From assembly GCA_947499885.1 (NCBI GenBank), contig CANMQB010000005.1:1-32994 (forward strand): a stretch of 32,994 nucleotides of DNA, written 5' to 3'. The first letter of the stretch is position 1. The number at the start of each line of letters is the position of its first letter. Shown here piece by piece: positions 10,078 through 12,101 of this stretch. The position numbers and the translations under genes were made by a program. Under the pieces are notes generated by a model. That model was not told where the DNA came from, searched no databases, and saw only the letters and a program-made list of their open reading frames with translations. The stretch is from Spartobacteria bacterium. Its GTDB lineage: Bacteria; Verrucomicrobiota; Verrucomicrobiia; Chthoniobacterales; Terrimicrobiaceae.

Positions 10078-10151
10078 TGGCTGCCCCGCATGGACTCGAA
10101 CCATGAATAATGCCTCCAAAGGGCACTGTGTTACCATTACACCACAGGGCA
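10078..10151 (-). tRNA. tRNA-Gln (anticodon UUG), CCA encoded
   Basis: Minus strand TGCCCTG-TG-GTGT-AATGGTA-ACAC-A-GTGCC-CTTTGGA-GGCAT-TATT-CATGG-TTCGAGT-CCATG-CGGGGCA-G-CCA folds as a 74-nt cloverleaf with loop CTTTGGA. Confidence 0.95.
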
Positions 10152-10341
10152 ATTTTAATTTCTTTAAATGAAGCACTTGGATATAACTCCTGCGCTGCTC
10201 CCTCAAATTTCTTTGCGATGCCAGCGTGCAACATTTGCCTATTCTGCATGCGTGGCGGGACTGGGCAAGGGAAAATTTCACGGGCTTAGAGCAAAGTAGC
10301 GCCTACTAGGCTGTGTGAGGGTTAATGTTTTTGGAGGAAGT

Positions 10342-11691
10342 ATGAATTTTACTTGGTCACAGGAGATGTCCACCTCTGGATTTCTTTGGTATTTCCCTCC
10401 CCAAGTCCAAATAGGGATTGCTCAGAGGGCGTCAGGTACGCAAATGTTTTCTATGAACAAAAAAACGCGCAATCGCCTTTTGGCTCTCGGATGCCTTTTA
10501 GTTTTTCTGGCACTTGGCGCTCTCTTTTACATCAACTGGGTTGTCCAACGCCCTTTTGCGGTGATTGTTTTTTTAGCTGATAATCTCACTCCCTCTGTTT
10601 TGACACCGGCTCGCAATTACCAAGGTGGAGCGGATCACCGCCTGCAGCTTGAACAACTGCCAAATTTTTCTCTGCTTGCGACCCATGCCAATGACTTTGC
10701 CGTTGCCGATGCGGCTGCAGCTGCAAGCTCGATTGCAACTGGCCAGAAGGGGAACAACGGGGTTCTTGGAGTCAATCAAGGCAACGGCGCACTTCCCAAT
10801 CTCATCGCGATCGCCCGCCAACGTGGACGGGCCACCGGCATCGTCTCCAATGCCTCGATCACCGATGCCACGGCGGCCGCATTTTATGCCGGGACGGCTG
10901 ATCCGCTTGACTACTCAGTGATTGCCCGCCAACTCGTGGAGGGGTCGGGAGTGGATGTGATTCTGGGCGGCGGCGCGGCGGATTTTTTGCCCGCGGAGCA
11001 GGGAGGTCGTCGTGCTGATGCACGTGATCTTCTGCAGGAAATACGAGGTAACGGTTATGATATTGTCCGTTCGGAAACTGAACTTGATGGTATTCCATCG
11101 TGGAAGACTCCCAAGACTCTGGGTTTATTCAGTATGGGAAACTTGAATTTTGCAGATGAATTCGGAGTCGATCCGGGACAGCCCACCCTGGCCACCATGG
11201 TTCGAAATGCCATCCGCCTGCTTCAATACAATACCCGCGGTTACCTGCTGATTGTCGATGCCGGCTTGGCGGGAAAATCTGCCACGCAGAATGAAGGCGA
11301 GCGCACGCTTCGGGAAATCCTTGCTCTCGATGATGCCGTGGCCGAGGCCATGCGCTATGCGGGACCAAAGGCGCTCGTTCTCGTTGTTGGCAAACGCAAT
11401 GTTGGTGGGCTCCGCTTGAACGGATACCCCTTTCGAAATGATAAAGGGGCCGGGTTGCTTGGAATCAATGCCCAAGGGGCCCCCTCCATCACTTGGTCCA
11501 CCGGTCCCGAGTCTGGCACGCGCACGAGCCCCGAGGGGCCAGTTTCAACAGAGCCATCAGCCAGCAAGCGGGCTGCTGCCATTGGGGTGGCCGAGGATGC
11601 GGTTGCAGTCGGTAGCGGTCCAGGTTCCGAAGCGCTCAAGGGGTTTCAGGATAACACGGTGATTTTCCAGATCGTTCAGAAACAGCTTTAG
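10342..11691 (+). CDS. Alkaline-phosphatase-fold protein, predicted catalytically inactive, N-terminally membrane anchored
   Basis: Global alignment by eye to PhoA family (VIVFLADNLTPS..., VADAAAAASSIATGQKGNNGVLGVN, NASITDATAAAFYAG, AEDAVAVGSGPGSEALKGFQDNTVIFQIV). Start uncertain: GGAGG precedes ATG 10342; alternatives are 10444 and 10453. Confidence 0.8.
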   Translation: MNFTWSQEMSTSGFLWYFPPQVQIGIAQRASGTQMFSMNKKTRNRLLALGCLLVFLALGALFYINWVVQRPFAVIVFLADNLTPSVLTPARNYQGGADHRLQLEQLPNFSLLATHANDFAVADAAAAASSIATGQKGNNGVLGVNQGNGALPNLIAIARQRGRATGIVSNASITDATAAAFYAGTADPLDYSVIARQLVEGSGVDVILGGGAADFLPAEQGGRRADARDLLQEIRGNGYDIVRSETELDGIPSWKTPKTLGLFSMGNLNFADEFGVDPGQPTLATMVRNAIRLLQYNTRGYLLIVDAGLAGKSATQNEGERTLREILALDDAVAEAMRYAGPKALVLVVGKRNVGGLRLNGYPFRNDKGAGLLGINAQGAPSITWSTGPESGTRTSPEGPVSTEPSASKRAAAIGVAEDAVAVGSGPGSEALKGFQDNTVIFQIVQKQL

Positions 11692-12101
11692 TGCGCCCGT
11701 GCTGGAAGCCGCTTCTCCAGTGTGAGTCTGGTCCCACGGGCCTGTGGGGCGTAGTCAACGCGGTCAAAAACTTTTCCAATAATAAAAACGCCTAGCCCCC
11801 CGGGCATGGTGGGGTTGATATCTTTGGTTTCGAAGGTGGGTGGTTGGAAGGACCTCCCGTAATCTCGCAGAACGAATCTTGTGCGGTCTCTCAGCCATTT
11901 CATTTCAAGTCTTATGGGCTTCGCCAAGCCGACATAGGCATGACGGATAATGTTTGTGCAGGCTTCATCAATCGCCATTACGATCTTCGCTGCCTCTTCC
12001 TCAGGAAATGCCGAGTCTTTTAAAAACGCTCTCACGCAATCTCTCACCTCGGCCATGTAGGAGGCATCGCTTGAAAAGATGATTTTGCAGGCAGTATTCA
12101 T
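11688..12101 (-). CDS. RsbW-like anti-sigma regulatory factor (HATPase_c_2 / serine-protein kinase)
   Basis: IVMAIDEACTNIIRHAY (N-box), LRDYGRSFQPP, MPGGLGVFIIGKVFD. Confidence 0.85.
   Translation of the reverse strand: MNTACKIIFSSDASYMAEVRDCVRAFLKDSAFPEEEAAKIVMAIDEACTNIIRHAYVGLAKPIRLEMKWLRDRTRFVLRDYGRSFQPPTFETKDINPTMPGGLGVFIIGKVFDRVDYAPQARGTRLTLEKRLPARAH

Follow-up and report, generated by a model that had tools for sequence, protein, structure and literature searches.

The window, a stretch of 32,994 nucleotides that makes up one contig (C5) of the 277-contig genome of a Spartobacteria bacterium, carries a gene (10453 to 11691, forward strand) for a 412-residue protein of the PhoA family of alkaline phosphatases (APs) without the zinc sites, the Ser nucleophile and the Arg166 of that family. 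Comparison with its relatives gives good support to the reading of this protein as a maintained pseudoenzyme, and from it we infer a molecular role: with a probability of about two in three, it is a binding or adaptor protein that has no catalytic activity, is anchored in the membrane, faces the periplasm and goes back to a single ancient loss of catalysis. If this is true, one of the best-studied enzyme folds has given rise to an old pseudoenzyme family that spans a whole order, and natural sequences would show a bimetal site dismantled while the fold was kept. No relevant paper emerged from literature searches on pseudoenzymes or pseudophosphatases of the AP family, and, judged by the literature searched, a PhoA-family pseudoenzyme distributed at class level is new.

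Gene structure and fold

The ORF scan of the window showed a frame open from 10315 to 11691 (forward strand). The most likely start is ATG 10453, with ATG 10444 as the alternative, because the first residues of the orthologs form a short basic motif (such as MNKKTRNR, VSKKLRNR or MKWRNQ). The 5' part of the frame (10315 to 10452, forward strand) is probably untranslated: it is absent from most orthologs, and a comparison of the window with the closest locus, which encodes a 98% identical protein, gives no sign of purifying selection on it, dN being about equal to dS (four nonsynonymous and one synonymous difference). The start at 10342 given in the sequence-only reading lies too far upstream, in this unconstrained DNA. 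With 412 residues, the protein is laid out as a short basic tail, a transmembrane (TM) helix and an AP domain. The nearest named relatives of the window genome are metagenome-assembled Verrucomicrobia/Spartobacteria.

The earlier recognition of a full-length PhoA-family framework was borne out. The PF00245 match spans residues 83-456 of the longest reading and almost all of the profile (4-419 of 423), with E=3e-47 and 162 bits, the gathering cut-off being 24.4 bits, and sequence comparison with solved APs gave E values down to about 5e-23. An AlphaFold2 model computed with the family alignment (pLDDT 89.5, pTM 0.89) shows the AP core preceded by a helix at residues 3-30; confidence is lowest at about residues 351-370, close to the former H412 segment. 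A Foldseek search of the PDB with this model returned shrimp AP (1k7h, E=5.7e-31, TM-score 0.81), placental AP (TM-score 0.82) and bacterial AP. The protein is homologous over its full length to the PF00245 enzymes, among them E. coli PhoA, the Antarctic TAB5 AP and the shrimp and placental enzymes, and shares their fold.

Catalytic positions

In PhoA, Zn1 is bound by D327, H331 and H412, Zn2 by D51, D369 and H370 together with S102, and Mg by D51, T155 and E322. Aligned to E. coli PhoA (L036, NC_000913), the window protein retains D51 (as D43, 10579 to 10581), D101 (as D86), D153 and T155 (as D138 and T140, 10864 to 10872) and K328 (as K275), all on the forward strand, like the positions that follow. 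The nucleophile S102 is replaced by Ala (D86-A87 for D101-S102, 10708 to 10713) and R166 by Pro (P151, 10903 to 10905). In the Zn1/Mg segment (11257 to 11286) D269 stands for E322, G274 for D327 and T278 for H331; K314-R315 (11392 to 11397) take the place of D369-H370; and G378 (11584 to 11586), which adjoins the lower-confidence loop rich in Pro, Thr and Ser, is found at H412. A larger family alignment gave identical assignments for this protein. The substitutions of Ser102, Arg166, Asp327/His331, Asp369/His370 and His412 had all been called from the letters alone, and all of them hold. An alternative placement with intact ligands was looked for and not found, the fold matches being APs.

By this alignment both zinc sites are destroyed (G, T and G at the Zn1 ligands; D51 kept but D369 and H370 replaced by Lys and Arg in the Zn2 set), while an acidic cluster of the Mg type is left in modified form (D, T and D at D51, T155 and E322). 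The earlier statement that most metal ligands are lost is therefore right for the two zinc sites but too broad for the pocket, where D51, T155, the E322 to Asp exchange, K328, D153 and D101 remain. The "ADN" motif, which had been listed as framework, is present and is itself the D51 motif with its Asp intact. The partial Mg-type set (D51, T155, D322, D153 and K328) makes weak or altered metal binding possible in the window lineage. In E. coli AP, kcat/KM falls 6.3e3-fold with the R166S exchange alone and 8.8e4-fold with E322Y (PMC4438272); set against this yardstick, the window protein is missing the Ser, the Arg and five zinc ligands all together.

At ten core catalytic positions, 24 of 24 canonical relatives keep 10/10, a figure that is partly given by definition, as residues were the criterion for calling a sequence canonical, whereas the 67 members of the pseudoenzyme family, sampled across genera by profile score and without regard to catalytic residues, keep 0-4 (median 2). 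No sampled sequence fell between 4 and 10 except a His-less paralog, described below, with 6/10 in 8/8 sequences. Non-catalytic columns without any variation in canonical enzymes served as an internal control, and these persist together with D101 in 96-100% of the 50 members from the order (G112 50/50, G144 50/50, G207 49/50, G205 48/50, G423 49/50). R166 and H412, on the other hand, are lost in 67/67 members and thus in all 50 from the order, where D327 and H331 are each kept in 2/50. Judged from these alignments, the family is defined by its lack of R166, D327, H331, H370 and H412, and most members lack D369 too. The loss of the Ser, which had been noted from the letters, is real in the window protein (Ala) but not defining, since position 102 varies among the order members (A, S, G, T, D, Q, R or E).

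The former catalytic positions now rank with the most variable ones of the protein: their entropy reaches the 99th percentile at 331, the 84th at 370, the 83rd at 102, the 75th at 327, the 73rd at 166, the 64th at 412 and the 57th at 369, whereas entropy at the same sites is zero in canonical enzymes. Position 369 is Lys or Arg in 37/50 order members; another 8/50 combine Asp369 with Val370, seven of these 8 also with Arg327, a combination that may represent one lineage. Basic residues make up 0.22 of all lost sites, against 0.10 in whole proteins and 0.17 at these sites in canonical enzymes (there through R166), so the enrichment is modest over all lost sites and clear at 369. Basic side chains in place of the zinc charge would fit the pattern at 369; the pattern follows lineages and is no proof of this.

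The residual acidic cluster raises the question of an enzyme with new chemistry in the AP fold, which would use one metal at the Mg-type site D51/T155/D322 together with lineage-specific residues. Within the order the cluster is indeed widely kept (D51 position Asp or Glu in 50/50, T155 in 38/50, D322 in 48/50, D101 in 49/50), and for the periplasmic domain of YejM, initially considered an improbable catalyst, a later report describes Mg-dependent phosphatase activity (PMC7576196), which by analogy is a warning for the window family too. Outside the order, however, D51 is kept in just 2/17 members, R166 and H412 are lost in all 67 sampled members, and an alternative nucleophile at position 102 was considered and rejected, as the residues found there include no conserved candidate. 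We regard new chemistry as unlikely.

Distribution and co-occurring phosphatases

PF00245 is present in 25 of the 26 genomes of the window's family. The orthologs examined from three genera (g1, g2 and g4) share the substitutions R166 to Pro or Ala, E322 to Asp, D327 to Gly or Ala, D369 to Lys or Arg and H412 to Gly or Glu, whereas three genomes of genus g5 carry a canonical enzyme instead, with all residues intact (L013, L016 and L021). When the order was searched with a profile built from three pseudoenzyme members, 181 of its 213 genomes gave a match, in most cases at E below 1e-98; by our reading of the table, roughly 170 of the 213 have the pseudoenzyme once the weak and the canonical matches are set aside. 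Elsewhere in the class the profile gave intermediate matches, and the TM-anchored, catalytically broken type was sampled there in at least nine further families (f20, f25, f30, f37, f39, f44, f50, f56 and f62). Orthologs with the same substitutions thus occur across the order and beyond it. Family f14 has canonical enzymes (L086 and L088), and the matches sampled elsewhere in class and phylum were canonical, bar two copies of the His-less paralog. The two f14 enzymes are of similar length to the pseudoenzyme members and about 40% identical to them, but possess every catalytic residue and a short hydrophobic N-terminus of signal-peptide type without the conserved TM motif.

The window genome encodes a PhoD on contig C119 (E=1e-58), whereas neither PhoX nor a canonical PF00245 enzyme was found in its assembly, which is an estimated 87% complete. 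It has a second PF00245 gene (contig C116; locus L002, 1291-2664, reverse strand), and this paralog was also seen at fifteen other loci. In 8/8 aligned sequences it shows H331 to Asn, H370 to Ser and H412 to Asp while keeping Ser102, Arg166 and the Asp/Glu ligands, a composition that suggests an AP variant with a hard-metal site of Mg/Ca type.

PhoA-type enzymes are dimers, and an inactive subunit could in principle heterodimerize with an active AP and regulate it. Dead paralogs that activate their partners are known elsewhere, as in trypanosomatid deoxyhypusine synthase (PMC3663545). Regulation of a co-encoded PhoA is nevertheless unlikely because the window genome assembly holds no canonical PF00245 enzyme as a partner; the extra PF00245 copies examined in the family are the divergent His-less paralog, and genus g5, which has canonical enzymes, is without the pseudoenzyme. 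We rejected this candidate function and consider the heterodimer reading very unlikely. In some genomes of the order, the pseudoenzyme and an intact canonical AP do coexist (G068 with L081 and L104; G207 with L141), and therefore the two types are not strictly exclusive.

The transmembrane helix

The TM anchor noted earlier was recovered as an N-terminal helix (residues 8-30, 10474 to 10542, forward strand) behind a short tail rich in Lys and Arg; it lies within helix 3-30 of the AlphaFold2 model, and the N-terminal segment shows stronger conservation than the domain (mean entropy 1.13 vs 1.47). R6, N7, F18 and G22 are invariant in 50/50 order members, A11 is found in 49/50, C14 in 46/50 and W29 in 45/50, and F18 also in 17/17 members outside the order. 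The family would thus differ from its canonical relatives, which have ordinary signal-peptide-like N-termini, in a permanent TM helix. Under the positive-inside rule, a TM helix with a basic N-terminus predicts an N-in, C-out topology, and the AP domain is on this ground predicted to be periplasmic. Because a plain anchor needs no invariant residues, the conserved helix points to a specific membrane partner, though its conservation could in part be due to the needs of membrane insertion.

The same residues bear on the idea of a purely structural envelope protein, one that, for example, holds a lipid or a cell-wall precursor and does not signal via its helix. The old pocket varies between lineages, which makes one conserved small ligand there unlikely, and the fold core is conserved, as would be expected of such a protein; by itself, however, a structural role leaves the invariant TM residues without explanation, and we hold it to be highly improbable.

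Selection and phylogeny

Pairwise dN/dS (Nei-Gojobori; several dS values were above 1 and saturated) was 0.027-0.098 in 16 member pairs; two pairs of canonical APs gave 0.06-0.08 and a third, more distant pair 0.17. The catalytic site is no longer under selection and the rest of the protein still is. This strong purifying selection (0.03-0.10) and an ORF kept intact in well over 100 separate genomes, with common substitutions and a confidently predicted fold, leave virtually no room for a recently inactivated, decaying gene or an assembly artefact, which has nothing beyond the loss of catalytic residues in its favour; the earlier preference for a maintained pseudoenzyme over a decaying gene is upheld.

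Maximum-likelihood tree building groups the members from the order and those from outside it in a single clade (SH-aLRT 99). We rejected the possibility that this clade is an artefact of the catalytic columns, because it persists when the columns around the catalytic positions and the N-terminus are removed, though its support falls to 91. The simplest reading of the tree is a single loss of catalysis before the families diverged, after which the dead pocket would have diverged in its turn.

Proposed role and significance

The reading that we prefer, a TM-anchored, non-catalytic binding or adaptor protein, would work as follows. A single-pass inner-membrane protein would display an exported domain that keeps the AP fold but for which the two-metal, phospho-serine reaction of PhoA should be impossible, so that selection would act on non-catalytic binding. 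The exported domain would engage a ligand or an envelope protein, in a binding or scaffold role such as had been suggested before, and the invariant TM helix would engage a membrane partner, making the whole an adaptor or sensor. In the window lineage, the Lys and Arg at the old D369 and H370 positions may substitute for the zinc charge, keeping the pocket folded and possibly able to bind anions. A more specific version, which we offer tentatively and think rather doubtful, is a metal-free sensor or adaptor in which these basic residues replace zinc, an anion or a phosphorylated envelope ligand is read, and the signal passes via the invariant helix; if it were true, this would be a core function of a bacterial order.

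A precedent for such logic is YejM/PbgA/LapC of enterobacteria, an inner-membrane protein with a periplasmic AP-superfamily domain, likewise a TM-anchored regulator, whose TM part binds LapB and controls the proteolysis of LpxC, thereby protecting LpxC (PMC7240159). The window protein is not a member of that family, because its domain is of the PhoA type (PF00245) and it has one TM helix, whereas YejM combines five with a domain of the LtaS/EptA type; the precedent concerns the logic only.

For annotation, the pseudoenzymes score far above the Pfam AP cut-off, and counts based on PF00245 would call them phoA; such counts could therefore put the phosphatase potential of these bacteria too high. 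A genome survey of freshwater Verrucomicrobia lists alkaline phosphatase among the phosphorus genes (PMC5673642).

Genomic neighbourhood

The neighbourhoods of relatives, in which genes of GC-rich genomes were called with a codon-composition gene picker (antisense ORFs spoiled a plain ORF layout), showed no conserved gene order pointing to a partner, and order was shared only within the genus: P-II-like, BacA and T2SSE-type genes downstream, and a sigma-like/TM pair upstream. Families f11 and f5 show a divergent pair made up of the pseudoenzyme gene and gpmI (six loci); the product of gpmI, the cofactor-independent phosphoglycerate mutase, is a member of the alkaline phosphatase superfamily too. 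With only the within-genus order and this pair at hand, a function drawn from the gene neighbourhood was rejected.

In the window itself, the gene is flanked by a tRNA-Gln on the opposite strand (10078-10151), and its convergent downstream neighbours encode, by Pfam, an HATPase_c_2 protein and a DUF2062 protein. The HATPase_c_2 gene (anti-sigma kinase type; 11688-12101, reverse strand) and the pseudoenzyme gene share 4 bases where their ends meet. On the other side, the segment 8862-10018 (reverse strand) encodes a small protein with a weak match to the PhyR sigma domain (E 0.06), adjoining a protein with one hydrophobic segment and without a Pfam match; these two genes, conserved within the genus, look like a pair of the sigma/anti-sigma type.
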